A stretch of DNA of 64,000 nt, taken from positions 37,523,001-37,587,000 of the forward strand of contig JAZHRO010000003.1 in assembly GCA_037157565.1 (NCBI GenBank). The letters run 5' to 3'. Positions within the stretch are counted from its first letter, which is position 1. The number at the start of each line of letters is the position of its first letter. The translations under genes were made by a program, and so were the position numbers. Under the pieces are notes generated by a model. The model was given only the letters and a program-made list of their open reading frames with translations. It was not told where the DNA came from and ran no database searches. This DNA comes from Thalassia testudinum (taxonomy: Eukaryota; Streptophyta; Magnoliopsida; Alismatales; Hydrocharitaceae). Shown here piece by piece: positions 13,564 to 57,859 of the stretch.

Positions 13564-13576
13564 CGTTGTAGTATAG
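13564..13576 (-). promoter_or_regulatory. U5 segment complementary to tRNA-Asp, element A 3' LTR
   Basis: Plus strand reads CGTTGTAGTATAG, 13 nt identical to tRNA-Asp nucleotides 3-15 as I recall them; it lies 42-54 nt from the LTR end. Confidence 0.6.
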
Positions 13577-15246
13577 CCGCTAAAGCGTTCAAAACAAATA
13601 AAGATTTTTATTTCTCGAAGATCGGAGTATCCGAGGTTGAACACAGGGAGCAAATGGAATTTACTACTAGTCAAAATGTAATTGAACACTCTAATTTACT
13701 CAAAATATCAATTCAAATGTGAATGTATGCAATTAAAAGTTATTAGGACAAAAATATGAAATTGGACGTCTGATCACAAGATCAGACGTCTTAAAAGTAT
13801 TTCTCCTTCTCGTCTTGCGAAGCCTTCTTCTTTTGATCTTCTAATCTTTTCTTTGCCTCTCTTGTTCTCTGTGTCTTGCTCTTTCTTCTTCTGCTTTCCT
13901 TCTTCTCGTGCGAAGGCTTTCTTTCTTTCTTCTTCTCTGTCTTTGCTCCTTCTTTCTTCTCTTCTTCGCCTCGCCTTTCCTTCTTCTTCTTCTGTAGCGG
14001 CCAAGTCCTTCTCCTGCGTTCAGCCTGGCCTGCACAGGAGCAAAACCTAACCCTTCTCCCTCTACCCACGCGTCTCTCTCTCTCAAGAAATTCACTCTGA
14101 CCTGCTCTCCCAGAGCCAAAAGCATTATCGGGTCGGATCGTACCCGGGACCAGGCGCACCTGCAGGTGTGTGATGCGCGAGGAGTGCGTAGGTCTAGGTC
14201 GTGTCGGATCCGCCAGGTCCGCGTGGTCAGGCCGCGGATGAGGCGGGTGGGGTCAGTGAGGGACCTCACCCCTGTGCTTACTGAGGCGATAAGAGTAAAA
14301 CACAAAAACAACTTATATGGTACCTGAGGGTTGCAATCCCACGATGTGGGACTATCTGGTCTCGCCTTCACGCGCGCCTGCAGAAGCCTCGTCATGCGAT
14401 TGCCCCGCAGCTGCTAGCTCTGCTAGCGCTCCTTGGCTGGACTCGTTCACCTCGCGACACTCGCGCTAGTATGCAACACCTGTAGCCTGGAAGACCGGGT
14501 GCCTGGAGCTTCGTGGGAGCTTCATCAGAGGTCGTCCATGGCGGCAGCGGCTCAAACCCTGTCATACACAAAACACGCCTCTCGGCCAAATCAGAATAGC
14601 TAGAGACCTTCGCCGTGGCACGGCGAAGGTGGTGGGCAGTGCTGCAGGCCGCAGGTCGGCCTAGGCGTGCGTGCCTAGGTCAACCTGTGGCCGGAGATGG
14701 TGGGTTGGTCGGGGGGTAGTTATGGAGGTCTGGAGTGGCAGTTGTGGGGTGGAGCGAGTTCCTGGTGGTGAGGCGGAGCTTTCGAGGTGGTTGGCGAGCC
14801 GTGTGGAGGGCTGGAGTGGTGTGGGCGGCTCGCCGGAGTGTGGTCGGAGGCGAAGATGATGGAGGTGGTTAGCGTCTGTCGAGGGTCGATCAAGGGAGAT
14901 AACAGGGGGAAAAGAGAGAGGAGAGGGTGGAGAACGTATCTGGGGTTGTCTGGAGGGAAGGGAGGCGGCGGAGAGGACGGCTCGTGACTGCCGTCGTCGG
15001 GGAAGAAAGACCCTGGGGGAGGAAGCGGCGACGAAGATGAGGTCAGGAGCTTGCACGCAGGGTACAGCGCGCCGCGGGAGGAAGAGGCGGAGAGGACTCT
15101 GCTGCTGGTATGGCAGCAGAGTGACGAGAAGGAGGGAAGGCGGTCGCCGGAGCTTGTGGGTCATTTGGCCGGAGATGGGAGAGAAGAAATTTGGAGGGGA
15201 TCTCCGTCAAAATCAAGCTTAGCCTCTTCGGCCGGAGTTGTGGGTT

Positions 15247-15254
15247 CTTATATA
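15247..15254 (-). promoter_or_regulatory. TATA box of element A 3' LTR
   Basis: TATATAAG on the minus strand, about 80 bp downstream of the U3 hairpin in the sense direction. Confidence 0.65.
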
Positions 15255-15335
15255 GGCGCTGGACTGGGTGTGCAGGGCGTGAAGGGCACGTAATTGCTTG
15301 AGGTTGGTCACCGGAGATGGAAAGGAGTTAGGATA

Positions 15336-15370
15336 CCCAAATCTCTCGTGCGTTCGCACGAGAGATTGGG
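15336..15370 (-). promoter_or_regulatory. U3 hairpin of element A 3' LTR
   Basis: 35-nt dyad opening CCCAA and closing TTGGG, with stem TCTCTCGTGCG/CGCACGAGAGA. The same 35-nt layout exists in C with a matched pair change. Confidence 0.75.
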
Positions 15371-16192
15371 TTCACACCGGCGATTGTAATTGGATTTATA
15401 AGGAAGGGAATTCCTCAGAGAATCCTCCTTCCATTTCTGGGAGGGAATCTCTGAGGGATTAGAGAGAAATCCCTCTCCGAACCTCGCCGGAGCTCGGTTC
15501 TGCCCTAGCAATGGCGGCAGGACCGGTTTGCAAAGGAGGCAAAGAACCTAGGGGCTTCTCTGCAACGGTATTCAAAATATAGGGACCAATTGGTGATTTG
15601 GGTGTACTAAATTGCAAAGTAGGTCAAGATGACCCCTCCTTAGGTCCAAATTTTGGTACAAACCTAATTTGGACCTAAGGAATCCAATGGCGAAGTTAGA
15701 TTTCAGGTTTGACCTCGTTTGACTGGACATTTTGCGTAAAAACCCAAATTAGGTTAATTGAAGAGCTAGGACCCTAATCTAGGTCAAACTAGGTTCCAAA
15801 GGCCAAATTAAGTGTTCTAAACCCTAGAGGATGTTTTTCCATGATTTTTAGATGGTTTACTTGCTTTTTGTTCTGACCGAAACCTTGTTAATTTAAGTGG
15901 GTCTGTTTTAGGGTTACCAAGTGTCATTTAGTTCTTAGATTGCACATGAACCCATTTCTGATTGACTCGACCCACTTTTTATCTTATTTGGACCATTTGA
16001 CCTATGTTTTGCTTCTGAGAAATCCCGTTTATGTACTGCAATGGTAAAATTGCAGTTTTAACCTTTATTTCATGTTTTCTTCTCAGAGCACTTGTTCCTT
16101 CAGTTAAGCCTTCTTCTAGGTTATGTAGGAGCTTTTATCTTCTTTATTGGGTCAAAATGAGCTAGTTATGGCTCATGATGAGGCTCTCATCA

Positions 16193-16221
16193 TACCCCCA
16201 TGCCTAGCTTTTGCTAGTCCC
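16193..16221 (-). promoter_or_regulatory. 3' polypurine box of element A
   Basis: 29 nt from GGGACTAGCAAAAG to GGCATGGGGGTA, directly followed by the 3' LTR. It contains CTAGC-AAAA-GCTAG, a perfect 5-bp stem. Confidence 0.85.
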
Positions 16222-16635
16222 TTAGCAAAATTTCAAAGTTTTAACTTCCATTCTAGACCCAAAGTGTCCTTAGTTATGATAAGTGCTTCTCCTTTTCTTT
16301 TGTGATTAGGTGGGAATGCCGACAATAAGCCTAGAGGTACTCAAGTATCAACCAAAATCTGGACCTGTTCCGCTTTAGCCTCAGTCTTCTGCAAAGGTTT
16401 CTACGGCCCACAGAAACTAACCTAGGGTTTGTTGGACTCCGCGGTTAAAGCACCCGTGCTTGAGATATTTTTAGCCTAAGTTCAGTTTGCAGTGCGTTTT
16501 TTTGTAAGAGAGAGATAGAAGATTTATTTGTTTGGAGAGCTTTTCTCTCTCTTTTCTTTTTATTTCTAGCTTCGGATTAGCTTCTCAACACGGTCTGTAT
16601 CGGATTCCTCGTCCCCATCATCAATCCTCAAGGGT
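16222..16635 (-). other. 3' untranslated stretch of element A
   Basis: No coding frame. It holds sequence homologous to the end of element C (63279-63685). Confidence 0.5.
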
Positions 16636-16784
16636 CCCTGGCTTTCGAGATTTCGAGATAATCCCGCCCATGGCAACCCCCGGAACCCTGGCTTTCGAGA
16701 TTTCGTGATAATCCCGCCCATGGCGTTCCGTGGCCGAATCCAGACCCTGGCGATCGACATTTCGTGATAATGCCACCCATGGTA
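16636..16784 (-). repeat. Triple ~38-bp repeat of element A
   Basis: Three units starting at 16636, 16686 and 16745 on plus, each with CCCTGGC, ATTTCG, ATAAT and CCCATGG in order, separated by 10-20 variable bases. The same triple is in C at 63124-63278. Confidence 0.75.
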
Positions 16785-19475
16785 TGTAACGACCCGGTTC
16801 CCGAGTCCCTACGAGACACAAGAACCGGACCGACTCGACTAATCCCAAGACCTAGTCGTCCAACGAGGAAGTAACCAAAAGACAGTAAAATAAACCACAT
16901 TCAGCATGAATATAACTAACAGTAAGAAAGTACAGCAGTAAGGAAAGAAACTACTACAGTAGGTACCACCACAACAGTAAAACAGCATTTATCATATAAC
17001 AAGAACTGCAGGTAAAGAAGGTACAGCGGAAACAAAAACTACTCACTAGAACAGAAACAAAAGGGGTACAAAAGGCTGTGGTAACTCTACTGGACCCTAC
17101 TCGGCCCAGCGTCCTCTGCAGCCGCCGACCCTGGCTGCTCAACACCTGGTCCTGAAAAAGGTAACGAGTGTAACACGTCAGCAAAACGCTGAGTAGAGTG
17201 GCAAACTAACTAAAGGCAACAGTAGAGTGTACAGTAGCTGTTATGTTCTATTACTTCCTTTATTCACATCTTTCAATTTTTCTCACTATTTCATTTATTT
17301 CTCAGATCCTTTACTTGATCTCGAATGTCCTCGTGGGAACGATCTTGATTGCAGTCTTTTCCAAAAGTAGAAGTAGCACGTGGTGCTCTCCTGGCCGGGA
17401 GAGTCCCCCGTGGTGATCCTACCCTCAGTCAACCACCCCAAGGTCACTGACAGACGTAACGGTGACTACGGCACGCGCGATAAACGCACAGGTAGCTAGC
17501 CCGCACTGGCATGCGGTCAGTCGTTTCCGTTAACGGGTGCGCCCAAAGCACAGCACGGAACCAGGGCAGAGCCCTCTCAGTAACAGGGGTCCAACCCCTC
17601 CACAGTAACCAAACCGGGGCCTTGCCCCTCCACAGTCCGCGCACCCTCGCCTGACTACCCTGGTTTGCCCTAGTGGGCCTAACAAGTCGGTGAAGGAGGC
17701 TAGCAGAACCCCGGGGCCCGTGGGGTAGCTAGTACTCTCCTAACACTAGTAGCTCTCCTCGGTACTACGTACACGAGGGCCAGCAAGTCGGTACAGAGCA
17801 GCCAATCCTAACCCCGGGTCCCTGGGGCGGCCGGCCCCACTCTGCACTAAACAGGTACAGGTACTTCCCTTGGTACTGCGTACCCAAGGGACAGTACAAA
17901 CTACATCTCAGTTCCATTCCTTTTTCTTTCCAGGAGTTCCACTCCTAATTCCCCGTAGGGTTCCAGCTCTTTATCTCAGAACATCTTATGTTTCACTTTC
18001 CAGATTCACGTTCTCAAAATCCATGATCTCAAGCATGTTTCTTTATTCATAACAGGCAGCTGTTAATTAAATTTACAGGTAGCTTTATATATTCCTTTCC
18101 ATTTTTCCAAGACTGCAGTAATATACATTCCACTAGTTTTTCCATCCTAGGATTCATGCCATATCCTAGGATCTATCATACAATCTAGTTTTCCGGCCCT
18201 AGGATTCATGCAACACCTAGGAGCTATCATTCCATATATTTCTCATTCCTAGGATTCATGCAATGCCCTAGGTTCTAGTTATGGTTCCATACTTTAACAG
18301 ATTTTATTAATACTTAAAGCCACTCTACCAGGTACAACGGGAGTAATGGGGGCGTGATCGGGAATCCCGCGCGCCTCCGCGACTCTCAAGACTGCAACCG
18401 AACGAGGTCCTATCACAAGGATCAAACACAAGGAGTGTCTCAAAATAGTGTATAGCTACTGAAGACGAGTAGAGGAATTAATTCTGAAAAGAACGCAACT
18501 CGAATCGTGGAAAACGGAGCCCAAACGGGCCCTAAACGGGTCGAAAAAGACGATACTGTGCAAAATCAGACGTCTGGAACTCCTTCCAGACGTCTTAAAC
18601 GGTGGATCAGAGAATTACCTGTTCAGCTTGGTTCCCCGGACGTCCAGAAGTCTGCAGGGACGTCTTTCCTATATCCCAGACGTCCGATGGTCCATACGGA
18701 CGTCTGTAGATCACTCCCGCCGTCTGGTACAACTTCCAGACGTCTGATTCGCAAAGGATGGCGAATTAGCGAACCTGCGCACAGCCAACCCCCCTCCCTC
18801 AGTACGGTCAGTCGACAAGAAGGAAGAAGAAAGCGGAAACTCACCTTTCAGACGTCTGTATGATCTTACAGACGTCGACCTTGCCGTCTGGATATCAACC
18901 CAGACGTCTGATTCTGGAAATTTTTGCAGAATCAGAACCCTGCTCGGCCTCCGCTCGCGACGCCGCCCGCGTCGCACCTCGCGCATCTGCTGCTCAGCCC
19001 GCAGCAGGTCCCTCTCCGCGTCGCTCCGCGCCCCCTGCGCCCTCCGCCGGCCGGCCAAGCCGCTCCGGCGAGCTCGCCCTCACGGCAGAGCCCCGCCCTC
19101 GCACGCCGCACCTCCTCCGCGCTCATTGCGGCTGCCGCTGCCGCCCTCGCGTCTGCTCGCTCTCGCGCACAGGAAGGAGAAGAAGGAGGAGACGGTGGAG
19201 ACGGGAGGGGAGGCACGCCCTTTTAAGGCCGCTCGAGGAGGAGAGAGAAGGTGGTCGCAGCGCGCCTGCAGCCGCAGAGAGAGAGAGAGGAATCGCAGGT
19301 CTGCGCGCACAGGCGCGCAGACGAATGTCCCGTGCGAACATAACTGTTCTCCAGACGTCTGTAAACGATCCCGGACGTCTGGTCAGACGTCTGGATGTGA
19401 TCTCAGACGTCTGGTCCGACGTCTGGGCCACCTCCCAGACGTCTTAAAAGGCGTCTGGGGCACGCGTTCGTTACA
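16785..19475 (-). mobile_element. Solo LTR F, probably Del/Tekay-like, inside element A
   Basis: 2,691 bp with ends TGTAACGA and TCGTTACA (8-bp inverted termini, TG...CA). Element C has no such insert at the matching place, which confirms the boundaries. Flanks share only GTA, not the usual 5 bp. On the minus strand the last part runs through GTTCCGC-type, T-rich sequence to GTCGTTACA, in the style of Del/Tekay chromovirus LTRs; this assignment is from general memory of such LTRs. No internal retroelement sequence is present. Confidence 0.65.
18567..19458. repeat. GACGTC palindrome array in LTR F
   Basis: About fifteen or more full or near copies of CAGACGTCTG, many in pairs with about 10 nt between them, as at 18677-18706 where the two flank ATGGTCCATA. 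The array is split by a GC-rich, CpG-rich stretch (about 18930-19320). Confidence 0.8.
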
Positions 19476-20220
19476 GTATCTGAACCAGCAGAGTGCTTAC
19501 ATGCCCCCAGTAGGATATTTAAATATCCTAAGAGACAAGCACCGAGGAGACGATATGTTGTTATGCATCTTCGAGGGGAATTTCTCGCCTCTCCGCGCTG
19601 GGAACTTGTCCAAATCAACTTGTGTTGATTGGCCGCTCCTAATCTAGGTGACTTTTTCAGAACATTAAACGCTCTTGCGTGTTTTGAATATTTATGCGCA
19701 CTGAACCAGACTGTGTGTGAATTTGGGTGCTTAGGTTACCGAATCCCGCAAACCGGAGGTCAGTTAACGAGGCCGAATACTTCCTAAGCCTTAGACCTAA
19801 TACTCAAGCTTCACATTTTCCTCAACCTCTTGAGGATTATCCAGATTTTAATGGATACGTGAATTTTTAAGCTAAAGGTACTAGCCCAAAAGGCCTAAGA
19901 CCAGCGTTCCCGCTAATCTCTTGTTATGTTTCCTTAGCACTTTTTCTTTTGTTTCTTTTCTTGATCTGGTCTAGAACTTCAGTTAATTCCTTAATCTTTT
20001 ACTAATGACTTTTTCTTTTTCTTTTCCTTTTGTGCTCCTTTCTTCATTTTTGCTCTTTTTCTCCTCCTTATGATTATATGGCTCACAACATTTCCTCCCT
20101 CCCCATTTTTTTTTTGTTCTTTTTCATAATTTTTCAATTTTTTGTGTTTTTGACATATGTGAATTTTTTGTGAGAATCCTTCTGATTTTTTTTTCTTGGT
20201 TTTGTATGTATGCACTTTAT
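19476..20220 (-). other. 3' untranslated region of element A with palindrome and A-rich run
   Basis: Homologous to 62383-63110 of C. It holds a 20-bp palindrome and, in the sense strand, A-rich sequence near 20000-20200. No gene. Confidence 0.6.
19511..19530. repeat. 20-bp perfect palindrome in element A
   Basis: TAGGATATTTAAATATCCTA equals its reverse complement. In C only one half of it is kept. Confidence 0.8.
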
Positions 20221-20257
20221 CACCCCCCCATGCCTAAGTTTTGCAATGTCCTCATTG
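20221..20257 (-). promoter_or_regulatory. Internal polypurine-like box of element A
   Basis: Sense strand ACAATGAGGACATTGCAAAA, then GGCATGGGGGGGTG. It lies about 4 kb before the 3' LTR, or about 1.3 kb if LTR F is removed. Confidence 0.65.
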
Positions 20258-20462
20258 TAAACAGAGGGTGGTAATTAGTGTTGAGGTCAGGGGCTTAGAA
20301 CAGGATATATCAGGTGGGTGAATGGGTCGGGAATGACTGATGCGAACGATTTTAAGCTCTGATACGTGTACCAGAGGTGGGATCAACTGTCTAAGGCTGA
20401 ACTCAAGGTGCAATAGACGTGGAGTACAGACGGCTAATCAGACGGGTCTCTATTTTTGAGAT

Positions 20463-20490
20463 GACGGGTTGCCTCCCGTTAAGCGCTAAA
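20463..20490 (-). promoter_or_regulatory. GGGAGGCA hairpin after the acidic ORF
   Basis: Sense AGCGCTTAACGGGAGGCAAC followed by CCGTC: stem ACGGG/CCCGT, loop AGGCAA, starting about 10 nt after the ORF stop. Related forms follow the last ORF in C, B and element 2. Confidence 0.65.
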
Positions 20491-20500
20491 TTTAATGCCT

Positions 20501-22132
20501 TCAGCCGAGCAGAAAATGGGGTGGAGAGGGAGTGGTCAAATCAATGGAGTTTTGGAAAACAAGCACCTTGATTAAGAGCCTGGTTGGTCCAACCAGGTAC
20601 TTGTTCAGATCAGTGGGCTGATGATGCAGCCCAAACCCAATAAGTCTGGTGGGTTGATAGATGTAGATTAGCAGATGTGGGACCCACCAAATGCAGTGAT
20701 GTTTTGATAGATATGGAAGTGAAAACTCGAGTTCGGGCTCAGTCGAATCAGCCTGGTGGGGGTAGGGTTCCAAAAAATAATCAATGTAAGGTGTGGAATC
20801 CCTACAGGGACGGTCAAAGGATGGAGGCTCCTGATTTGTGGTCTGATCAGTGTCCGATACCTGGTATAGATATGGAGTTGAATCATCTGCAATCGGCTCA
20901 GTGAGAGGTGAATCAGAATAGAAATTGAGTCCGGCTGCGGGTCGAGGTGGGGAACGGGTTTTGATTGGTTCTGTATTTGTGGAGCAGGTGGCTTCAAAGA
21001 AGATTGACATGTTATAATCAGGAGGCAGATTTTCTCCGATGTTATGGTCAGATTCGAGATCGTCGGAGAGTTTGCGAAAATCAAAGTTTGAATGAGATTC
21101 TAGATCATGAGTTCCACCATAGAATAAATCATATGTTGTATATTCAGCAGCCTGACTGGGATCTAGCCTAAATGTTAATTCTGAGCTTACAAAGGTGTCC
21201 CTATCTGGTAGAGGCTCAGATTCTAAGCTAGTAGGGCAGACCCAATCGAAACCCCGCTCGTCCAACTCCTCGGTTTCTGTATCGTAGATTGGCATGACTT
21301 CTGAAAACTCGATTAGTTCCTCTGAGGAGGTTGACGAGGGATATTCATCAAATCGAGGCCCAAAATCATATTCTTCATTAAAAGGTTGATCTTCTTCATA
21401 TGGGGCCTTGAAATCTTCAATATAGGTTTCAGATCTAGATTCTAGGCTTAGGATGTGAGTGGAATTACTAGAATCTAGGTCTGAATAACCTTCGAGGGTC
21501 ACCTTATCAGAATAAGGGACGGAATTTATACCCTTGAGAGGTTCAGTTCTACTTTCATACTTGCAGGAGTTTTGGGATTCTAAAATGGGCTCAACATTGT
21601 ATTTTCCTGCATTTGGAGCTTCCCAACCTTCTTCAATATCAGGCACATTGTACTTTGTCTGGGTTGGGAATCCACAACCATTTTGTGCCTTAAACCCAAG
21701 ATCAGATTTATCCTCGATGTTGTCCCAAGATAGTTCATCCTCTGTTTGTGGTATATACGGATATTTCTGATCAATAACTTGTTTTACTAATCTCATTATC
21801 TCTTCCCGTTTTTCAAGACTATCTTGGTGTTGCTTCCAAAGTCGAGGATTTGTCATACATTGAAGGTATTCACTATTATGCAATTTTTCTATCTCAATGT
21901 ATGCAGTAATGAGCAAGTCACGGGTTGATCCTTTGTTGGCTTCTGCTAATAGTACTTGGGCACAAGTTATGACAAAGGTTGTGGTTGTTGGGATATCAAC
22001 CTGAATGTTTCCAACTGTTGTTGAGGTTTCTTCATTTTCATAAAATCTCATGGCATCCTCAATCATTTTATCTCTCATGGATCTCCGATATTCAGGTTTC
22101 TCGACTGGTAGTCCTAGGTGGTTCGGCTGCAT
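20501..22132 (-). CDS. Acidic ORF of element A, unknown function
   Basis: An intact 543-codon frame on the minus strand. The open frame extends 14 codons further upstream to a TTG beside a stop, so I start at the first ATG (22130-22132). Residues 1-150 are mixed and helical-looking with basic patches (EYRRSMRDKMIEDAMRFYEN). Residues about 150-420 are very rich in Asp, Glu, Ser and Tyr. The last 100 residues contain Trp, His and Leu-rich sequence and two DSTPY motifs lie before them. No zinc knuckle, protease DTG/DLG, RT, RNase H or integrase motif is seen. It occupies the place where gag-pol would be. Survival of a long frame in a heavily decayed region fits the youth of A; a role is unknown. 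Confidence 0.6.
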   Translation of the reverse strand: MQPNHLGLPVEKPEYRRSMRDKMIEDAMRFYENEETSTTVGNIQVDIPTTTTFVITCAQVLLAEANKGSTRDLLITAYIEIEKLHNSEYLQCMTNPRLWKQHQDSLEKREEIMRLVKQVIDQKYPYIPQTEDELSWDNIEDKSDLGFKAQNGCGFPTQTKYNVPDIEEGWEAPNAGKYNVEPILESQNSCKYESRTEPLKGINSVPYSDKVTLEGYSDLDSSNSTHILSLESRSETYIEDFKAPYEEDQPFNEEYDFGPRFDEYPSSTSSEELIEFSEVMPIYDTETEELDERGFDWVCPTSLESEPLPDRDTFVSSELTFRLDPSQAAEYTTYDLFYGGTHDLESHSNFDFRKLSDDLESDHNIGENLPPDYNMSIFFEATCSTNTEPIKTRSPPRPAAGLNFYSDSPLTEPIADDSTPYLYQVSDTDQTTNQEPPSFDRPCRDSTPYIDYFLEPYPHQADSTEPELEFSLPYLSKHHCIWWVPHLLIYIYQPTRLIGFGLHHQPTDLNKYLVGPTRLLIKVLVFQNSIDLTTPSPPHFLLG

Positions 22133-22261
22133 ATTTGGATCAGGTGGTGGAATCACGATCAGAGTTTGACTCAAGATGTGTTATGAAGCGATCAGATCTG
22201 AATAACGAGTCCCACTGAAAATGAGTGTATGTGCTCTACAGAGAAAAGATGCAGGACTGGA

Positions 22262-22475
22262 GATGTTCTTGACCCAATCAAGACACCCAAAAGATGTTTG
22301 GATGACTATGGAAGTTAGGGGCGGATGGACCCCTGGATCCGAAGATCGTCCACCTGAGAATTACCTGGGCAGCCAGAGAGGGAGAGTCCCGCAAAGACCC
22401 CTACACGGTAGAGCGTCCCTACGGGTTACAGGGTTTCCCCCACCCGACCTCTCTTGTCACTGAGATTCCAGGTAA
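22262..22475 (-). promoter_or_regulatory. Conserved leader block of elements A and C
   Basis: Closely similar to 58632-58815 of C over about 180 bp, including GTCGGGTGGGGGAAACCCTG and TTTGCGGGACTCTCCCTCTC. It is untranslated, about 0.8-1 kb after the primer site and just before the ORF, where a packaging or translation signal could sit. Confidence 0.6.
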
Positions 22476-23296
22476 ACTAGAATGGGGACCTTGACCTCTT
22501 AAGTCTATCACTTTTTATTTCAAAGGTGCATTTAGGGTTCTCACTTGAATTTTAGATGTCTTTGGTATTGTGACCTAATTTAGAGGTTGGTTGACCCAAG
22601 GGGTCAACTTCACCTGACCTGTCCTATAGATGGCAGAATGATTCTAAGCTCGGAGCCTAGAGATCACCCTGATTTGACTCCCAGGTTATTAGGTCAAAAG
22701 AAAATTTTAAGATTCAAGTGATTTTAGAGCTCAATTTTAGGGTTTGTCTTATTTAACTTTCTTCAATCAAGGGCTTGGGTAGCACACTGATGCGGGAAGG
22801 TTTATTTCTTTTTACACAGGCATGTGTGACTAGCGCTTCAAGACCCTAATGTGGAAACCCTAATTTGGTTCTATTTCCAATCCTCTTTTTCTTTTTCAAA
22901 AGTTCTCTTTGGACTTATAAACAAGAAGTGTGTGGTCTGCCGAGATTAAGCGTTATTTCAACTAGGCACAAGAATTTGTGGGATGGGAAAAAAAATCACT
23001 CCAACTTCAAGAATATTTGCAGAAATTTTCGCAAAATCAGGAAATGTTTTGCCTTAGAGATGGTGATTACTATATAAAGAAGGCAATTGATTCCTAAATT
23101 GATTTTCTTCCTTTTGTCTTTCAAAGATTAGGGGATGATTAAGGAAGAAAAGAAATTAGCTGCCCTGGAGTGGTTAACTTATGGGAGAGATTTTCTCATG
23201 AAGTACCCTTTAAGATCACATCAAAGAAAAGTAGGGCAAGTTAGTGTTCAATATGATAAAAAGAATGTAGAGACTAGTGGTAAATTGCGCATTGCT
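22476..23296 (-). other. 5' untranslated leader of element A
   Basis: Between primer site and conserved leader block; partly similar to 57918-58630 of C. No coding frame is supported. Confidence 0.55.
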
Positions 23297-23313
23297 CCCC
23301 GGCAACGGCGCCA
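23297..23313 (-). promoter_or_regulatory. Primer binding site of element A (tRNA-Asp)
   Basis: Sense strand TGGCGCCGTTGCCGGGG, 17 nt exactly complementary to the 3' end of plant tRNA-Asp with CCA, three bases after the LTR. Confidence 0.9.
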
Positions 23314-23360
23314 AAATGTTCGTCGCGCTTTTGTGCGGTTTGTTAAAAGATAATACCGCA

Positions 23361-23372
23361 TTGTAGTATAGT
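23361..23372 (-). promoter_or_regulatory. U5 segment complementary to tRNA-Asp, element A 5' LTR
   Basis: Plus strand TTGTAGTATAGT, 12 nt identical to tRNA-Asp 5-16. The preceding CG of the other LTR is CA here. Confidence 0.6.
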
Positions 23373-25041
23373 CGCTAAAGCGTTCAAAACAAATAAAGAT
23401 TTTTATTTCTCGAAGATCGGAGTATCCGAGGTCGAACACAGGGAGCAAATGGAATTTACTACTAGTCAAAATGTAATTGAACACTCTAATTTACTCAAAA
23501 TATCAATTCAAATGTGAATGTATGCAATTAAAAGTTATTAGGACAAAAATATGAAATTGGACGTCTGATCACAAGATCAGACGTCTTAAAAGTATTTCTC
23601 CTTCTCGTCTTGTGAAGCCTTCTTCTTTTGATCTTCTAATCTTTTCTTTGCCTCTCTTGTTCTCTGTGTCTTGCTCTTTCTTCTTCTGCTTTCCTTCTTC
23701 TCGTGCGAAGGCTTTCTTTCTTTCTTCTTCTCTGTCTTTGCTCCTTCTTTCTTCTCTTCTTCGCCTCGCCTTTCCTTCTTCTTCTTCTGTAGCGGCCAAG
23801 TCCTTCTCCTGCGTTCAGCCTGGCCTGCACAGGAGCAAAACCTAACCCTTCTCCCTCTACCCACGCGTCTCTCTCTCTCAAGCAATTCACTCTGACCTGC
23901 TCTCCCAGAGCCACAAGCATTATCGGGTCGGATCGTACCCGGGACCAGGCGCACCTGCAGGTGTGTGATGCGCGAGGAGTGCGTAGGTCTAGGTCGTGTC
24001 GGATCCGCCAGGTCCGCGTGGTCAGGCCGCGGACGAGGCGGGTGGGGTCAGTGAGGGACCTCACCCCTGTGCTTACTGAGGCGATAAGAGTAAAACACAA
24101 AAACAACTTATATGGTACCTGAGGGTTGCAATCCCACGATGTGGGACTATCTGGTCTCGCCTTCACGCGCGCCTGCAGAAGCCTCGTCGTGTGATTGCCC
24201 TGCAGCTGCTGGCTCTGCTAGCGCTCCATGGCTGGACTCGTTCACCTCGCGACACTCGCGCTAGTATGCAGCACCTGTAGCCTGGAAGACCGGGTGCCTG
24301 GAGCTTCGTGGGAGCTTCATCAGAGGTCGTCCATGGCGGCAGCGGCTCAAACCCTGTCATACACAAAACGCGCCTCTCGGCCAAATCAGAATAGCTAGAG
24401 ACCTTCGCCGTGGCACGGCGAAGGCGGTGGGCAGTGCTGCAGGCCGCAGGTCGGCCTAGGCGTGCGTGCCTAGGTCAACCTGTGGCCGGAGATGGTGGGT
24501 TGGTCGGGGGGTAGTTATGGAGGTCTGGAGTGGCAGTTGTGGGGTGGAGCGAGTTCCTGGTGGTGAGGCGGAGCTTTCGAGGTGGTTGGCGAGCCGTGTG
24601 GAGGGCTGGAGTGGTGTGGGCGGCTCGCCGGAGTGTGGTCGGAGGCGAAGATGATGGAGGTGGTTAGCGTCTGTCGAGGGTCGATCAAGGGAGATAACAG
24701 GGGGAAAAGAGAGAGGAGAGGGTGGAGAACGTATCTGGGGTTGTCTGGAGGGAAGGGAGGCGGCGGAGAGGATGGCTCGTGACTGCCGTCGTCGGGGAGG
24801 AAAGACCCTGGGGGAGGAAGGGGCGACGAAGATGAGGTCAGGAGCTTGCGCGTAGGGTACAGCGCGCCGCGGGAGGAAGAGGCGGAGAGGACTCTGCTGC
24901 TGGTATGGCAGTAGAGTGACGAGAAGGAGGGAAGGCGGTCGCCGGAGCTTGTGGGTCGTTTGGCCGGAGATGGGAGAGAAGAAATTTGGAGGGGATCTCC
25001 GTCAAAATCAAGCTTAGCCTCTTCGGCCGGAGTTGTGGGTT

Positions 25042-25049
25042 CTTATATA
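25042..25049 (-). promoter_or_regulatory. TATA box of element A 5' LTR
   Basis: TATATAAG on the minus strand; this copy should start the full-length transcript. Confidence 0.7.
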
Positions 25050-25130
25050 GGCGCTGGACTGGGTGTGCAGGGCGTGAAGGGCACGTAATTGCTTGAGGTT
25101 GGTCGCCGGAGATGGAAAGGAGTTAGGATA

Positions 25131-25165
25131 CCCAAATCTCTCGTGCGTTCGCACGAGAGATTGGG
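25131..25165 (-). promoter_or_regulatory. U3 hairpin of element A 5' LTR
   Basis: Identical to 15336-15370, about 80-90 bp upstream of the TATA box in the sense direction. Confidence 0.75.
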
Positions 25166-25987
25166 TTCACACCGGCGATTGTAATTGGATTTATAAGGAA
25201 GGGAATTCCTCAGAGAATCCTCCTTCCATTTCTGGGAGGGAATCTCTGAGGGATTAGAGAGAAATCCCTCTCCGAACCTCGTCGGAGCTCGGTTCTGCCC
25301 TAGCAATGGCGGCAGGACCGGTTTGCAAAGGAGGCGAAGAGCTTTGGGGCTTCTCTGCAACGGTATTCAAAAGATAGGGACCAATTGGTGATTTGGGTGT
25401 ACTAAATTGCAAAGTAGGTCAAGATGACCCCTCTTTAGGTCCAAATTTTGGTACAAACCTAATTTGGACCTAAGGAATCCAATGGCGAAGTTAGATTTCA
25501 GGTTTGACCTCGTTTGACTGGACATTTTGCGTAAAAACCCAAATTAGGTTAATTGAAGAGCTAGGACCCTAATCTAGGTCAAACTAGGTTCCAAAGGCCA
25601 AATTAAGTGTTCTAAACCCTAGAGGATGTTTTTCCATGATTTTTAGATGGTTTACTTGCTTTTTGTTCTGACCGGAACCTTGTTAATTTAAGTGGGTCTG
25701 TTTTAGGGTTACCAAGTGTCATTTAGTTCTTAGATTGCACATGAACCCATTTCTGATTGACTCGACCCACTTTTTATCTTATTTGGACCATTTGACCTAT
25801 GTTTTGCTTCTGAGAAATCCCGTTTATGTAATGCAATGGTAAAATTGCAGTTTTAACCTTTATTTCATGTTTTCTTCTCAGAGCACTTGTTCCTTCAGTT
25901 AAGCCTTCTTCTAGGTTATGTAGGAGCTTTTATATTCTTTATTGGGTCAAAATGAGCTAGTTATGGCTCATGATGAGGCTCTCATCA

Positions 25988-34386: not shown

Positions 34387-35756
34387 GCACTACCGTAGGA
34401 AGAATTGGGGGGATACGAAGGGAAAAGAGATGAGAGAAATGACACCGCAAAGATACACTTGATGACAAATCAATACAATCAAATTCCTAACCTCTACAGT
34501 GTGCCCTTAGACCTAAAGATCTAAATTACCTACTATAACGACCTACGGAACCGAATGCGAGCACCGCGAAACCACTAGGCCAGATTGAAAGGCTGTTTGC
34601 CCTAGTCTTAGACACTCGATAGCATGCGGGAACCCTCACCAGCACGTAGGCGCTACATGCAGGTAGTTAGACCTCCAATCCTTAATAAGGGTCAAGTTGC
34701 TACTAATTTTAGTTAGAGGCTTAGGATTAAGTGTTTCTAGAATGTGAAGGGCGTTATTTATGGGTAATGCCCAAGTGATTGATTTTACAAAGTGTGTAAA
34801 CCAAGCATGCAACGGGGAAATCTCCCCGAATTGAAGTTTTAATTGGTGAATGGTTTTTAGAGTTTCAACCATAAGTAGTATGGATTTTAGGATTTCGTTG
34901 AATTACCAATTCAACCAATCTCCGGGGTTTGAGAGAATACAAGTTTTCTTGTAAGCCCAACAAACCCTTCTTCAATGTCAGTTGGTTAATGCATGCTAAA
35001 ATGCAATGGGCTTCCCTAGATGGAGATTTCTATGTGTGGATGCATGAATCAATTTTAGATTAGTGTGAAAGGGAGCCAAACCACTTCAATTGAAGTGCTC
35101 CCAATCACCAAAATGATTCCCACACACAAGGCTCAACCATAAGATAAAGAAAATCAGATTGTTGGGGTTGAAGTATTCGGGATCGAATCTTAGGCACGTG
35201 AAAGGTCGTGGTGGGGTTGGAATCAACTCAATTCCAAGTCTCCCCACCAAAAAGGTGATCCTGAATTACAGATAAATGAGGCAAAGAAGGGTGGCAATCA
35301 ATCTTTTTATCTTTGCCTCCAAGAATACTTCTCACAGTGAAAGATTCAAGAATCAAGATTCTTGGATTTTCGCTATGCGAAGTTAGGCGGGAAATCTCGG
35401 GCGGTGGGAGTGATGACAAACAATCAAACAAGTGATTTTTAATCCACTTACCCCAAGAAATCCCAAGAAGTTTTTTCAGTTTTTTTTTTAATTTTATTTT
35501 TATTAAGGTGACAAGTTGACCTAAGTTGTTAAGAAAGAAAGACCTACTTGTTCAGCAACGTGTGTGAAGCTCCAGTGTGGTGTCGGCATCTTCACGCTCT
35601 CGTTCCCACCTTGGATCTACCCACGTCTCCGACTTCGTCTGCCTGTCTTCTCCTTGCAACAGGTTCACCTGCACAGCAACAAACGGAAACACCCGTGAAG
35701 AGAAGGGTGTGAGGAGAAAAATTAAAGGAATGGAGTAGAAACTTGAATGCGCACTT
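34387..35756 (-). other. 5' leader of element 2
   Basis: About 1.4 kb between primer site and gag, colinear with 43684-45064 of B. It has no coding frame. A long leader is normal for this branch. Confidence 0.7.
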
Positions 35757-35773
35757 CCTCGGCAACGGTGCCA
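35757..35773 (-). promoter_or_regulatory. Primer binding site of element 2 (tRNA-Asp type)
   Basis: Sense TGGCACCGTTGCCGAGG, two changes from the exact complement of tRNA-Asp, 14 nt after the LTR. Confidence 0.8.
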
Positions 35774-35838: not shown

Positions 35839-35849
35839 AGTATAGTGGT
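35839..35849 (-). promoter_or_regulatory. U5 segment complementary to tRNA-Asp, element 2 5' LTR
   Basis: Plus strand AGTATAGTGGT, 52-62 nt from the LTR end and close to the primer site. Confidence 0.6.
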
Positions 35850-39011: not shown

Positions 39012-39245
39012 ACCTGCATAAAGAAAGCACCTCCGCACACACTCCCACACATCCATCCTACACTCTACACAGCACTTCGTCTTGTTGGTTGCATCTTTCT
39101 AGATGTGGACCAACTCGACACTGTGCTACACGCCATTTCCACTTCCACCTTGATACGTGGGTTCACTCAACTTAGTAGTTAAGTTAATTTCACTTAATTA
39201 AGAGTAGAAGAAATCACTTAGGTTAACTCGAAGTTGTGTCGGTTA

Positions 39246-39255
39246 TGTAGTATAG
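39246..39255 (-). promoter_or_regulatory. U5 segment complementary to tRNA-Asp, solo LTR D
   Basis: Plus strand TGTAGTATAG, identical to tRNA-Asp 6-15, about 95 nt from the LTR end. Confidence 0.5.
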
Positions 39256-42200
39256 GATCGAATTAACCTAACATTTTAGAAATTTTTACTGGTTGAGTCC
39301 AGGTCGTTCATTGGGAGGCATAATAATTTTCTCCAAATTCACCAATTTTCTTTTCTCTTTAAGTTTAGGAGGTAAAACTAGTTTCATTTTCAAAACATGA
39401 ATTTTGTCAAAATATTTAACTATAAAGGATATACAAAATTCCATATGAAACATATTAACTCAAAATATTGTACTTTATTAACAAGTAAACATGCTAATTT
39501 TTTCAATTTTATTTCATTCTAAGAAACTAAGGCAAAAAGTTATCTAATTAAAGCATGCCTTTTACAATTAAGAACAAAAAGTAATTATGCAAGAGAAAAT
39601 TCATTTATCTCTCTACAGCCTCTAATCTTCTTCTCCTTTTCTTTTCTTCTTTCTCTCTTTTATTTTCTTCTCTCGAGCTCTCTTTCTTCTTACCTTTCTT
39701 GTGTTGTTCCTACCTTCCTATCTTCCTTCTCTTCTTCTTTTTCCCTTTAATATTCTCCTGCCTTCTCTTCTTCCCTTAGTTTTTCTCCTTTGTTCCTTAG
39801 TCTTTTTCCTTAACACTTCTTAGCCTGTGACTTCTCCTTAAGCACTTAGCATCCTTCAGCAGCCTTCAGCGGCTTCTCTTTCCTTAAGATTTCAACTGAA
39901 CCGGGTTTTTTTTACTTTTTAAACCAAAAGTTTTTTTATTTGCGGCGAGGTCCTTTCGAGGATACACAACACCCTGGGACCAGGGTGGGACCAGACCCTA
40001 CTCGGTCCTCACCTAATCTCAGTTAGGTTCGTTTTGGTTCATTTTCATTGGTTCACAGTTTTGAGCCACATCGGCTCAACCCGGCCTCCCAAGCCACACT
40101 CGCCCTCCCAGGGCACATTCACATCCGCACACCCCCAAGGGTGCACACACTCGTAGGCAAATGGCCACACACAGACCACATAATGCTTAGATCAGAAGGA
40201 ATCGGAACCGGTGCGCCGAGCGCTAACGACTGCATAGCCAAGGGAACAAAGTAGTTTTATACCCAGGCACGGGCTCGTAAGTATCCGAGGTGGGATAAAG
40301 CTAACCCTTCCAGACTCGAATTCAATCGATCGTAACTTTCTACCCAGAGCTCCAAATTGGATGATTTAAAGTTCGTTGGAAAACTCTAAGGGTAATCTAC
40401 ACAATTTTAAAGTCAAGTTAATGTTTTAATGATGTTTGGCTCTTCAATTTAAGAGATGAAATCAGGGGTTTCTACGGGTTTTATAAAGCCTGGAGAGTAT
40501 TTTAACTCAGGAGAGTCCTCAGATAGACTTCTCTCATGTATTAAAGGTCTGTACATATTATATAAGCATTTTTGCTTCTGTTAGGATAGATTTAAACTCT
40601 TAAGACCTATAGAACCTGCAGAAAAGCTTTTGTCTTCTCTAAAAACTTCAGTGGTTGATTTCCAGATTTCAATAAGTGCAACAGACACTTTAAAGTGTTC
40701 CTAATCTACTTAGATTAATTCTAAGGGTTTTAACTAATCAATCTGGGCAGGTTTTAGGTTTGAATTCCATCAGAACAGTGCTTTTGTTGGTTTAGGTTCG
40801 AAAGTAACCCAACTTAACAGGAACATAATCTTTACTAATTACATCATCTGAGCTTACTTTAATTGATTTCAGATCATCAAAAAAGATTTCAGAAATAGTT
40901 TGCACATCTCAATTCCTCAATTCAAGCTCAGAACACCATTATCAGACTTAGGTTTGACTATGGAAGCTCGAAAATTGACTTTCTATTTAAAGCTTCCTCC
41001 TAAGAAATTAATGCCTCAATCAGAGTCTTCTCATCATCAAAAACTCATTCAGATATTCAGATTTGTGTTTCAACCTTAATTCCTAGGGATTCAGGCTCGC
41101 CGCCTGAACTGAAATAGGTATGTGTTCGACAGAATTAATCAGAGTTTGTTACAATGTTTTAAAAGTTAAAATAGCTTCAGTGCATCGCACTAAAGCTTCT
41201 GAGCTCCTTAAGTGTTTCTTAAATCCTTCATAACAGACTTCTCCAACTCGTCGGAGTTTGGGAAGATGAAGTTACATCTAAAGCTCCAGTGGTTGAAACA
41301 TCAAACAAATTTCTTTAAAATGATCAGTAATCCTTATTTTATTATTTTGGAGCCACTTAGCAATTTCTAGAGGCTGTAACACAAAAATGGCTCGTCGGAG
41401 CTCCGGTGAGTCCATAAAATATAAATTGCATGTACAAATTGACAAAATTAATTATTTTTAATCCAGAAATGATCCTGAGGTTACAAGGAACCTCTTTATC
41501 ACATTAAATTCTTCATTTGTTCATTGAAATAAAAGATTTGACAGTAAGTTTGTTTCTTAAAAGATTTGAATGGTTAAGCTCAGGACTTGATTTAACTACT
41601 CAATTGAGAAGTTAAATCAAGTCAACAGATGTTATTAATCATAAATTTATATTTAATTTACAGTTTGAAATGTTCCCGAGCTGCCATGGACAGCGAGCTC
41701 AGGAGCTAAATTAAGATTGGGCGTTTAATTATAGATGATAATAATAGGTAATATAATGTCGATTAGGGTTCATTAGTGGTGATAGGTGATGAAAGAACCC
41801 AGTGAAGGTGGAATTAGGCCGACTACTATCACCATAGACAATGTAGTAATCGGTGAAGGTGAGATTTGAATTAGGCATTTAGGTGATTTAATTAATGATT
41901 AAGTGAATTAGAAGTGAACATGGAAGTTAAAGGAAGGTGTACAGTGAATTAAAAGACATGATTAAAGTCTCTGGCGAGCTCAAGGAACTCGCCGGAGTCG
42001 GAGGAGATGAAGCTAAATTCTAAAATTACTCTAACCTAACTAACTAAGCTAGCCTACTCCTACTTCTACTCCTAGTCTACTGTTACCTGGACGAAGGGGT
42101 CAATAGGGTTCCGCCGAAGGTTCATAGCGGACAACGAAATCAGAGGGTTGAAGAAAGATCTCCGGCGGGCGGATTTGAGGTGGAGCAGAGGAATCCTAGG

Positions 42201-42386
42201 GTCGGCGCCTTTGTCAGAGGTGCGGAAGATCACGATGGATCTCCTCGGCTACTTAAGATGGACGAAGGAAGTCGGAAGATGGAATGGGGAATCGCCGGAG
42301 GTTTGGAAGAATAGCCTATCGAAGTCGGCTACAGTGTTAGAAGAGGGAAGGGATCCAACTTGCCTAAAATCGGAGGTGTGAGGGGG

Positions 42387-42394
42387 TATTTATA
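42387..42394 (-). promoter_or_regulatory. TATA box of solo LTR D
   Basis: TATAAATA on the minus strand in a C-rich context; its position fits the U3-R border. Confidence 0.6.
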
Positions 42395-43143
42395 GCAGCC
42401 TGCGACGAAGAGTGGGGCGGGGTCTGGCCGAAGAAGGAGCTTAAGGAGCTTAACCTCCGTCATCATCTCTAACGACGGTGAGGTTAACTCCCACTGAAAA
42501 ATAGGATTCTCGGTTAATCCAGACCGATGGATGAAGTGTAGGTGGTGAGCGCAAGCTGCAAGAGCTTGGGCAAAGAGGAATGATGTCGGCGGGGTGGTGA
42601 TCATGCGGTGGGATGACTCCGCCAGCCGTTCATTTGGCTGGTGAAGAAGAAGACGAAGAGGGACTTAGAAGTAATAAAACTTAAGGACCTGTGTGAGAAA
42701 TAAGGACCCAACTGCAATGAATATTACGGACTAAAATGTAAACCCAGGTTTTGAAGGTTTATTTTAATTTAGATCTTTTTCAACTTTTTATATATGTTAG
42801 TAAATAAGGTAAATATTATGTTTACACCTTGAATTTACATTTTTGACCTTTTTAGGTTAATTTATTAGATTAAGTAAAAATACTTAAGTTATTACATACT
42901 TAGTATACATTATATTTAAGTTACTTATCTTATTAATTGAGGAAATGACTAATAGAATTTCGAGTCCAATTATTATATAAATTATTAATTGAATGATAAA
43001 ATGTTATTTTTAACTTATTTTAAGGTCCTTGATTAAATATCCCTTATTCTATAATTAACTCTTATATATTCATAACCCTAGCTAATTAACTAGGAAGACT
43101 AGTTAATTAGGAGTAATTAGAGATCATAATGAGTGTCTCATCA

Positions 43144-43653
43144 CACCCCCACCCCTATATATATAATATATATATATTAGATTTATTTCTCTACAAGCAA
43201 CCTATCTTGTTTTTATTTCTCTTTTGTTTCCTGCTATTAAAATGATAAAAAAAGAGAGTAAAAGATAAAAGATAATCCTTGTCTTGCAGGTACTAGGTCT
43301 TGCAATCAGCAAGACCAATTTTTGGAACCCTAATTTGGCTCAAAGCCAAGAACTTGATTTTGAGGGTGTGCCTCAAGGACAATATTATCAACAAAAAAAA
43401 TCCTAAATAGAAAAGAACCAAAAACATAATAAACGCACAGAAGAGATATGTTTTAGGAAAGGCATATAAACTTCTTCTCCTTTAATCCCCGCCTCCCTGA
43501 GATCGACCCTAGGCCTAAAAGTAACCAAGATAAAATTAAGTAGGCCAGGTTAAAAATTTTGTAAAAAGATGGTTAGGCTCGATTTAGGTTAACCACTATA
43601 CTCACTTCAATGATAATTTCACCATATTAACACAACCTATTTGAGTCCTAACA
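43144..43653 (+). repeat. 5' LTR of element B, piece 4 (U5 end)
   Basis: Opens with CACCC (right duplication of D) and ends GTCCTAACA. It matches 54258-54798 of the 3' LTR. Confidence 0.9.
43592..43602 (+). promoter_or_regulatory. U5 segment complementary to tRNA-Asp, B 5' LTR
   Basis: ACCACTATACT, complementary to tRNA-Asp 9-19 and 62 nt before the primer site. The 3' LTR copy has decayed here (ACCTCTAAACT). Confidence 0.6.
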
Positions 43654-43664
43654 TACCTTTTTTC

Positions 43665-43683
43665 TGGTGCCGTTGGCGGGGAG
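43665..43683 (+). promoter_or_regulatory. Primer binding site of element B (tRNA-Asp type)
   Basis: TGGTGCCGTTGGCGGGGAG, two changes from the exact tRNA-Asp complement, 11 nt after the LTR. Confidence 0.8.
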
Positions 43684-54798: not shown

Positions 54799-54803
54799 GA
54801 TCC
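54799..54803 (+). repeat. Right target-site duplication of element B (GATCC)
   Basis: Matches 6575-6579 exactly although 48 kb apart. Confidence 0.9.
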
Positions 54804-55210: not shown

Positions 55211-56053
55211 TGATGGGAACACCATCATGAGTCATAACTAGCTCAATTTGATCTGATTAAGTAAATAAAAGATCCTACATATCCATCAGAAGGTTTTAAG
55301 GGCACAAAACATTGATTTAAGAGGAAAATAGGATTACAGGGTTATTTCTGCAAATATACAATGCTATCATAAAAATAGAATAACCACAGATTCTCTCAGG
55401 GGTGGAACAAAAGTCAAATTGTCTTAAGAGTCAAATAAGTGGGTTAGAATAGATAGAAAATGATTTTCATACATTACAGGAATTAATGGACATTTGAAAC
55501 CCTAAAAACAGACTTGCTTAATATACTAAGGTTCTAGTCAGGATAAAATTCACCTAAGCCCTCTAAAAATCATATAAAAATATTTTCTAGGATTTGGCAC
55601 CTTCAATTTGACCACTGGAACCCATCTTGACCTAAAACAGAGTTTCAGATAGACATTTGCCCTAATTTAGGTAATTGTGCAAATTACCCAGTCAAACTAG
55701 GTTAAAACCAAAATCCAACTTCACCATTGGATTCCTTAAATCCATATTAGGTTTATAGCAAAATTTGGGCCCAATCTGAGATTGTTTCAACCTAGCTTGC
55801 ACTTTGGTCCAAGTCTGATTTCCTTTATTCCACATAGGCCCTTAACTTTTGAATTTCCTACACAAAGGTCCCTATCTTTATCATCATTTTCTTCAAAAAG
55901 GTCCCTGCCACCATGAATCCTTTTCCTACAAACTCCGGCAACCTTAATTTGGCATGTTCTCCTTGATTCCTTGATGAATCCCTCTTAGATTTGAAAGGGA
56001 AGTTCATCAAGGAATCCCTTCCTTTTGAGTCAAATCCTAAGCCCTAAAACTTT

Positions 56054-56088
56054 CCCAATCTCTCATGCTAACTCATGAGAGATTTGGG
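56054..56088 (+). promoter_or_regulatory. U3 hairpin of element C 5' LTR
   Basis: 35 nt from CCCAA to TTGGG with stem TCTCTCATG/CATGAGAGA and loop CTAACT, about 80 bp upstream of the TATA box. Confidence 0.75.
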
Positions 56089-56168
56089 TATATTTCAATT
56101 CCTATCTCTGGCAAGCTTTCCTAGGTTGGGAAGCTTAATTCCCAAGCCCAAAACACCCTACAGAGGCC

Positions 56169-56176
56169 TATAAAAG
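56169..56176 (+). promoter_or_regulatory. TATA box of element C 5' LTR
   Basis: TATAAAAG in GGCC-rich context. Confidence 0.7.
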
Positions 56177-57849
56177 ATGCCCCATATTAGATCGAAGAAC
56201 CCAAGCTTGATTTTGGCCTAGAACACCCTCAATTCCTCCCTCCTAATTTGGCCGAAAAGCTCCTCAAGCTTCGACGACCTCCTCAATCATCATTCCTCGT
56301 CCGTTTGCAATACCGGTGATGGATTTGCCTCCCTCACCTTCCTCCGTGTCGCGTAATGCCAACGGGTGCTTCTATCTTTGTCATTGTCGCCGTCCTTCCC
56401 TCACCGAAGCACCTTCATCCCCAACGTCGGCCACACCACAACCGGAGTCACCTCTGGCCTACTTCATCTGCTATCTAGCCCTATCGACACCTCATCTTCC
56501 ACTTATCACTCTCGTACATTCGTAACTCTATTTTGACCGCCGACTTGCCCTAACGCCCTCTGTCTTCCACCTCGTTGGTGTACCTCTGGCAAGTTCGCAC
56601 GGCCACTACACTCCACTAACTTGGCTACCGTTCATCCCTACACCTTCGCCATGTCCCAGAGAGCAAAAGCCCTCTGGTTATTGAGGCTATTGGCCTCTGC
56701 TTAGTGCCATCGAACAACGCACCTTTGCGTACCCTTCTCCATCACCGTTCGACCTCCACCCTCACTCGCACCACATGTCGCACCCACCATCGCACTTGCC
56801 ACTCCATAGTGAACCTGTTGATCCATCTGATGCGGTTGCGAGGCCCTTTTTCTTGATTTTTAGATGCCAAGTCCTCCATGCCATTAACAGTGAGCTTAAG
56901 TGAAGCTTGAAGCTCTCATCAGCCATTGCAGCTCCACGGGGAACTCCCAAGCGCAACGGAATTCCTCCAGGATCACAACCCAGGGACCAATTTGGCCCTT
57001 TGATCGAGGCCTTTGACTGCAATTGAATGAAGCAGCAGCTATAGTTGCACGTAGAAGAAGCACGGTGGGATAGTCCCACCTCGGAAGCTAACAGACGGTC
57101 GCAGCCACATATATTGATTTTCTGCCACAGGCTATTCGCCTCAACAGAACACAGGGGGTGAGGTCCTCATATGCCTCCTTCACCTATGCCTCGCCCATGA
57201 CCCATTCCCCCGCAGACCTGGTGCAGATCCGAACCGCCTAAGCCTTGTTCACACCTCGACTGCGATATCACGCCCGTAGCTTTGGTCTCGAGTACGCTCA
57301 GATTTGAATTTGATTACCCAAGGCTCTGGGAGAGCGGATCCCAGAGAGAGAAAGAGAGAGCGCACAGGGGCACAAGGGGGGCTTTGCTTTGTGGTTCAAC
57401 GGCTGACACTTAGCCGTTTAAGGAATCTTTCGCCCCTTGTGCGTGAAGAGAGAAGAGAAGAGCAGCTACAGAATAGTGAATATGAGAAGAAGGCACAGAA
57501 GAAGAGAAGAGGAAGGGTGTACTTAGAGTTCCAGCTGGTCTCTGAAGAGAGTGCACTGTGCACTCATCCTATGTTGAATTTAGATTGATTAGTACTATTG
57601 AAATATTTGATATAATTATGAGGGGTAATTGGTGATTCAAATCACTATTTTACCCCATTCTTTTTGCATTATTGACATCTGCTTTCATTTATATATCATT
57701 CTTGTTTGAAGTTCTATTATAAATTGCTTCTATTGTGCTTGAATTGCAATTTTGAGATTCATACTTGCCACTTGCTCCCTGTGTTCGACTTTGGACTTCA
57801 TTTCTGATATTCGAGTATAAATATTATTTGTTTTTCGTGTTGATTCAAC

Positions 57850-57859
57850 CTATACTACA
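57850..57859 (+). promoter_or_regulatory. U5 segment complementary to tRNA-Asp, element C
   Basis: CTATACTACA, complementary to tRNA-Asp 6-15, 37 nt before the LTR end. Confidence 0.55.

Follow-up and report, generated by a model that had tools for sequence, protein, structure and literature searches.

A U5 box complementary to the 5′ part of tRNA-Asp as a probable second primer contact in Athila-type retrotransposons of Thalassia testudinum

To our knowledge, the selection, opening and positioning of the transfer RNA (tRNA) primer have hardly been tested in long terminal repeat (LTR) elements beyond retroviruses and the yeast Ty elements. In this study, a 64,000-nucleotide (nt) stretch of Thalassia testudinum (contig JAZHRO010000003.1, positions 37,523,001–37,587,000; hereafter the window) was analyzed for U5 segments of LTR elements that are complementary to the 5′ half of tRNA-Asp, the tRNA to which their primer-binding site (PBS) corresponds, and the wider tests were made in the same genome (4.26 gigabases, 237 contigs). 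Papers are cited by PMC number, and what is said of each refers to the part of it that was available.

In HIV-1, the primer activation signal (PAS) lies upstream of the PBS and provides an additional pairing with the primer, proposed to involve the T-arm of tRNA-Lys3, and it has been examined by mutation in work cited in the same paper (PMC13191261). The primer sites of Ty1 and Ty3 for tRNA-iMet are bipartite, with contacts beyond the PBS that for Ty3 include the D-arm (PMC5371799, PMC4974528). The second part of the Ty3 site is located in the 3′ U3, about 4.8 kilobases (kb) off (PMC5371799), while in Ty1 the CYC5 segment, a D-stem complement downstream of the PBS, yet pairs with CYC3 (PMC4974528). 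No contact of tRNA nt 1–11 with U5 upstream of the PBS is described in the available parts of these two accounts. Among plant elements, Diaspora and Calypso carry a tRNA-Asp PBS and Diaspora is placed in the Athila lineage (PMC1142308, PMC6317226); tRNA-Asp as a primer is also treated in PMC6521008, and tRNA priming and silencing in PMC7472051. Among the papers listed, as far as titles and the starts of abstracts go and with most subscription papers outside reach, none describes plant elements that contact their tRNA at a second place, and among the literature matches listed for the 10-mer of the segment no plant-element paper appeared by title.

The U5 segment, here called the box, is probably a second conserved site at which the genomic RNA of Athila-type Ty3/gypsy elements pairs with its primer, tRNA-Asp. 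The Athila label of these elements rests on the PBS type. The position of the box, its conservation, its presence in tRNA-Asp-primed but not in tRNA-iMet-primed elements, and tRNA-Asp copies fused to LTR ends were observed; the formation of an RNA–RNA duplex and a role of this duplex in annealing or initiation are inferred. In the window, a first-pass annotation had pointed to such segments in eight LTR ends, nine in its own list, and direct reading found all nine to be exact complements of tRNA-Asp(GTC) on the sense strand of the element, as claimed. Each LTR end was compared with dinucleotide shuffles (2,000 per end, 150 nt each); p was ≤0.003 for all but D, that is, for both ends of A, element 2 and E, for the 5′ LTR of B and for C, and was higher for D (Table 1). 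The segments lie between 38 nt (C) and 96 nt (D) from the LTR end. The B 3′ LTR copy has indeed decayed, as the annotation had stated, its best tRNA-Asp match being 5 nt. Because B, 2 and E are a single lineage, A and C are distant relatives, and D looks like a solo LTR, these segments amount to about four lineages rather than nine independent cases.

The tRNA-Asp PBS occurs 30,625 times in exact form in the genome, and the reversed pattern is absent. The main sample consisted of the first 90 of 100 PBS places listed, all on contig C1 and chosen blind to U5; the 90 loci fell into 7 coarse families or 14 finer clusters, a grouping that depends on BLAST thresholds and single linkage, and loci inside one family are non-independent. 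The tRNA-Asp(GTC) letters used were identical over nt 1–16 to those of two gene-like copies in the genome, and nt 1–18 are in print. In the 110 nt before the PBS, an exact complement of at least 9 nt to tRNA-Asp nt 1–16 was present in 67 of the 90 loci, while the control complements of nt 11–26, 21–36, 31–46 and 41–57, the sense strand and the reversed complement each gave 0/90 at 9 nt. An exact match was found in 6/14 cluster representatives (200 permuted 16-mers: mean 0.085, maximum 2), and 11/14 reached at least 10 nt when G.U pairs were allowed (permuted 16-mers: mean 1.06, maximum 5). Downstream of the PBS (110 nt), the complement of nt 1–16 was seen at 8 nt in a single one of the 14 representatives. 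The core 8-mer, opposite nt 3–10, stood 25–55 nt before the PBS in 54/90 loci; its other permutations (1,120 in all including the motif) averaged 0.045 of 90 and reached at most 6, with 0 for the exact reverse. When the search was widened to 200 nt upstream and to tRNA nt 1–26, 86/90 loci reached 10 nt with G.U pairs. Those that fell short were L019, L034, L051 and L071, and L036 reached 10 nt only at another place.

Thirty tRNA-iMet-PBS loci (of 202 in the genome; 8 families) were searched, and 0/30 carried a complement of at least 8 nt to nt 1–19 of either tRNA-Asp or tRNA-iMet. The difference from tRNA-Asp-primed loci (67/90 vs. 0/30) was significant in a Fisher test (p = 3.7 × 10−14), a value to be read with the non-independence of loci within families. 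The first-pass annotation had expected the segments to exceed shuffled U5 and to be rarer in families with another primer tRNA, and within this one genome both comparisons support its proposal of a second primer contact. One correction concerns the conserved core, which lies opposite nt 3–11 and not opposite nt 9–19.

This core was delimited in the 87 loci in which the box could be placed (L034, L051 and L096 were dropped; ties in placement shift the per-position counts by 1–2). Nucleotides 4 and 5 of the tRNA were matched in all 87, nt 3, 6, 8 and 9 in 83–85, nt 10 in 80, nt 11 in 79, and nt 7 in 72, with G.U in the remaining 15. The least conserved of nt 1–11 were nt 2 (A, matched in 61) and nt 1 (C, matched in 53), and many loci match only nt 3–14. 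The box carries one additional A in L051 (ACTACAAACGAC). In B, 2 and E it is split, with CTATACT or CTATACA separated by CATTT or CACTT from a following CAACGA or CAATGA, so that the pairing predicted for B 5′, 2 and E would come in two parts, around a bulge that faces nt 8, the hinge of acceptor stem and D-arm. The 9–19 pairing claimed earlier for the B type is accordingly exact in B and 2, and covers 10–19 in E, but represents a bulged variant of the core. The box overlaps a tRNA A-box; an antisense RNA polymerase III promoter was looked at by eye only and was not counted.

A box inherited as a DNA motif with only a chance likeness to the tRNA, such as a core promoter, a poly(A) or an end signal, would fit with the apparent relatedness of all families and with a CCTGWG..TCGAC-like block common to 73/90 loci. 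However, the complement is exact over up to 14 nt in a wider listing of the 90 loci, the bulged variants retain both halves, the distance to the PBS varies from 24 to 75 nt (median 44; 87 placed loci), and the 30 tRNA-iMet-primed loci do not have it, which makes this explanation quite improbable.

Copies of the full tRNA at LTR ends bear on the identity of the primer. A search for tRNA-Asp genes scored 40 places among 569 first-look candidates, a lower bound, and ARAGORN called tRNA-Asp in 6/6 fetched copies, of which only L131 and L135 were free of an LTR end. In L132, L133, L134 and L136, whole tRNA-Asp copies including CCA were directly fused to an LTR end of the type in the sample (at about base 1500 of the locus). 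The tRNA complement has ACTACAACGAC as its last letters in L132, L133 and L136, after which the U5 spacer occurs a second time (48/48, 48/52 and 51/51 identical), with a PBS next. The tRNA complement, duplicated spacer and PBS indicate that the reverse transcriptase (RT) seemingly copied the whole primer and that the product was joined at the box. These fused full copies look like genomic traces of the primer really used and are strong evidence for tRNA-Asp as the primer. Gene finders take such LTR-fused copies for tRNA genes, and the DNA adjoining L134, which was joined elsewhere, reads by eye like integrase coding sequence.

Since three of the fused copies rejoin at the box, the box may instead be a landing site, at which a plus strand ending in the complement of tRNA nt 11–1, that is, in the box itself, anneals to the box as copied in the minus strand and continues. 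The three junctions with duplicated spacer and PBS show that something of this kind happens. Such a strand would nevertheless end opposite nt 1–2, precisely the least conserved positions of nt 1–11 (C in 53/87, A in 61/87), while many loci match nt 3–14 only and the boxes of B/2/E, C and D stop short of nt 1. With the 40 tRNA-Asp-like places set against 30,625 PBSs, rejoining looks like a rare by-product. L134 was joined elsewhere, and we consider a landing site an unlikely reason for the conservation of the box.

The second pairing with the primer could act as follows. The PBS would take tRNA nt 58–75, which cover the acceptor 3′ strand and a portion of the T-arm. The box, 24–75 nt upstream, would take nt 3–11 and often nt 1–15, which cover the other acceptor strand (5′) together with the D-arm on its 5′ side. 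Holding both acceptor strands would prevent the stem from re-closing and keep the tRNA on the template, and the tRNA 3′ end would thereby be placed for minus-strand synthesis. The broader proposal of a lineage-wide two-handed clamp, in which the tRNA is opened by the genomic RNA itself and, once the tRNA has been copied in full, the box sometimes provides homology for strand transfer, has about an even chance of being right in our estimation. In plant retroelements, such a clamp would represent a new class of primer contact. Computed separately, the box:tRNA duplex had predicted energies of −10.2 to −21.7 kcal/mol in 11/14 representatives, at a cost of 0–5.8 for opening U5, and was weak (−0.5 to −5.9 kcal/mol) in L034, L051 and L071.

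A partner within the genomic RNA, for instance in a U5–PBS hairpin, was weighed too, as CAACG in the box can pair with CGTTG in the PBS and as Ty1 CYC5/CYC3 provides a precedent (PMC4974528). CAACGAC, which suits the tRNA, was found in 43/90 loci, and CAACGGC, which suits the PBS, in 0/90. Many boxes also run on to TACTA or TATACTA, which are not in the PBS, and the sense strand of element A, the only element searched in this way, contains no exact partner of at least 8 nt for its own box. An internal partner is thus very improbable. The host could also steer silencing through the box by means of 5′ tRNA-Asp fragments. The first 18 nt of tRNA-Asp in print are, by title, mainly from small-RNA inventories, and a review names Athila6A as the target of a 19-nt tRNA-iMet 5′ fragment (PMC8215267). 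A harmful site should be lost, though, and the box is kept better than its average flank, so a small-RNA target as the origin of the box is highly improbable, although secondary exploitation may occur.

The mean identity of the box in five clusters was 0.984, 0.909, 0.911, 0.986 and 0.972, compared with 0.917, 0.759, 0.823, 0.984 and 0.880 for the flanks. Changes in the box were mainly transitions (40 transitions vs. 10 others; 599 vs. 627 in the flank comparison), and core changes that keep a G.U pair outnumbered those that break the pair by 16 to 4.

Several results weigh against a second primer contact. The box windows rank only 10, 29, 31, 59 and 18 of 137–140 in the five clusters, other U5 stretches being better conserved, and in cluster 3 the conservation of the box equals that of the flanks. 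The 16:4 excess is no evidence of selected pairing, because six of the eight core letters are A or C and composition suffices to produce it. In RNAcofold predictions, the PBS paired with the tRNA (18 base pairs) and the box with nothing in 14/14 cases, a result that neither supports nor refutes the contact, because the program cannot draw the crossing structure of a box upstream of the PBS. The reversed motif with G.U pairs reached 10 nt in 3/14 representatives (box: 11/14), and a good box is missing in L034, L036 and L071. Genome-wide, the exact core 8-mer stood 25–55 nt before 9,711 of the 30,625 exact PBSs (31.7%), vs. 60% in the richer C1 sample; the exact search misses G.U variants such as CTATAACG, which are present in 4/14 representatives. 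The tRNA-iMet-primed elements are without a comparable contact of their own, and a search for an Arg-type PBS pattern, aimed at covariation with a third primer, gave 0 matches. As the families have other U5 features in common, they are distant relatives and not independent inventions of the box. The longest open reading frame of element A gave no Pfam match.

Outside T. testudinum, a PBS scan of genome contigs gave four loci. L005 and L008 were dropped as bacterial (GC content 0.63–0.65), and L006 and L007 (GC content 0.365), which come from bacterial assemblies, were kept as likely plant contaminants. L006 has TACTACAA, complementary to tRNA nt 5–12, about 33 nt before the PBS (p = 0.0515), and peanut Athena has CTATACT-TG-CAACGA ahead of the same PBS (PMC5904367, in the part available). 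L007 has only CTTACCACT (nt 14–22), about 97 nt before the PBS (p = 0.0145), and counts against the contact; two of the three outside cases therefore fit the core. L006 (BMWJ01000030.1, Streptomyces clavifer) and L007 (NZ_JABGCI010000027.1, Blastococcus endophyticus) are in themselves apparent cases of contamination by plant retrotransposons with a tRNA-Asp PBS. Viral contigs scanned for PBS or RT relatives yielded apparent phage loci or nothing.

The coordinates in the window are given in Table 1. The layout suggests nesting: A (13522–25987) lies in the 3′ LTR of element 2, and the 5′ LTR of B contains D, E and element 2. Element C extends past the window edge. The PBS of A is exact and that of element 2 a near-match, and no PBS was identified for D and E. 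In Pfam searches, gag, RT and RNase H of element 2 were above the cut-off and its protease slightly under; gag of B was above with RT and protease under, and gag of C was at the cut-off. E carries the last 1.1 kb of its LTR twice in tandem (8743–9870 and 9876–10987; 91% identical), an unusual LTR-on-LTR arrangement. The second U5 block, CCTGWG..TCGACC-like and about 100–130 nt upstream of the PBS in its 73 loci, is also present in the window close to LTR ends (A, B, C, E and 2) and in L006, and is altered in L007. A short hairpin often comes after it, with a run that resembles AATAAA or TATAAAT, and the block may mark a poly(A) or start region.

Table 1. U5 boxes, primer-binding sites and LTRs of the elements in the window
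Feature	Position	Strand	Remarks
Element A U5 box, 5′ LTR copy	23361..23372	-	Complement of tRNA-Asp nt 5–16; p 0.0005
Element A U5 box, 3′ LTR copy	13564..13576	-	Complement of tRNA-Asp nt 3–15; 0/2,000 shuffles
Element A PBS	23296..23313	-	Perfect 18-nt complement of the tRNA-Asp 3′ end
Element A 5′ LTR	23317..25987	-	98.7% identity with the 3′ LTR
Element A 3′ LTR	13522..16192	-	Self-comparison and ends read
Element 2 U5 box, 5′ LTR	35839..35849	-	Complement of nt 9–19; 5 nt on, CAACGA (nt 2–7)
Element 2 U5 box, 3′ LTR	11824..11834	-	Complement of nt 9–19; 5 nt on, CAACGA (nt 2–7)
Element 2 PBS, tRNA-Asp type with mismatches (TGGCACCGTTGCCGAGGA)	35756..35773	-	Exact 9-nt core 35760–35768
Element B U5 box, 5′ LTR	43592..43602	+	Complement of nt 9–19, then CACTT and CAATGA
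Element B PBS, tRNA-Asp type	43665..43682	+	2 mismatches
Element C U5 box	57850..57859	+	Complement of nt 6–15; p 0.003
Element C PBS, tRNA-Asp type	57900..57917	+	5 mismatches
D U5 box	39246..39255	-	Complement of nt 6–15; p 0.014; without adjoining PBS
D, probable solo LTR (TG...CA ends) within B 5′ LTR	39151..43143	-	Self-comparison and ends read
E U5 box, first copy	9809..9818	+	Complement of nt 10–19; 6 nt on, CAATGA
E U5 box, second copy	10926..10935	+	Complement of nt 10–19; 6 nt on, CAATGA

With thousands of occurrences in a single plant genome, the conserved box opens primer use to sequence comparison and in vitro annealing. It would also offer another landmark in the annotation of Athila-type LTR ends, and would explain how interference with these elements could come from 5′ and not only from 3′ tRNA fragments.

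Compared with the described systems, the elements studied here share the primer and the PBS with Calypso and Diaspora, for which the available parts of the papers mention no further contact with the tRNA (PMC1142308, PMC6317226). The box differs from the Ty1 contact, which is downstream, in lying upstream of the PBS in U5, and from the second segment of Ty3, which is in U3, in lying at the U5 end. Unlike the HIV-1 PAS with its proposed T-arm partner, it fits the 5′ acceptor strand and the D-arm of tRNA-Asp, and the complement of nt 41–57 was found in 0/90 loci at 9 nt; lacking a T-arm pairing, the box is therefore not classed as a PAS. It is like the PAS in its location in U5 upstream of the PBS, at 24–75 nt in the 87 placed loci, and the crossing topology of the two pairings would, by analogy, be common to both.

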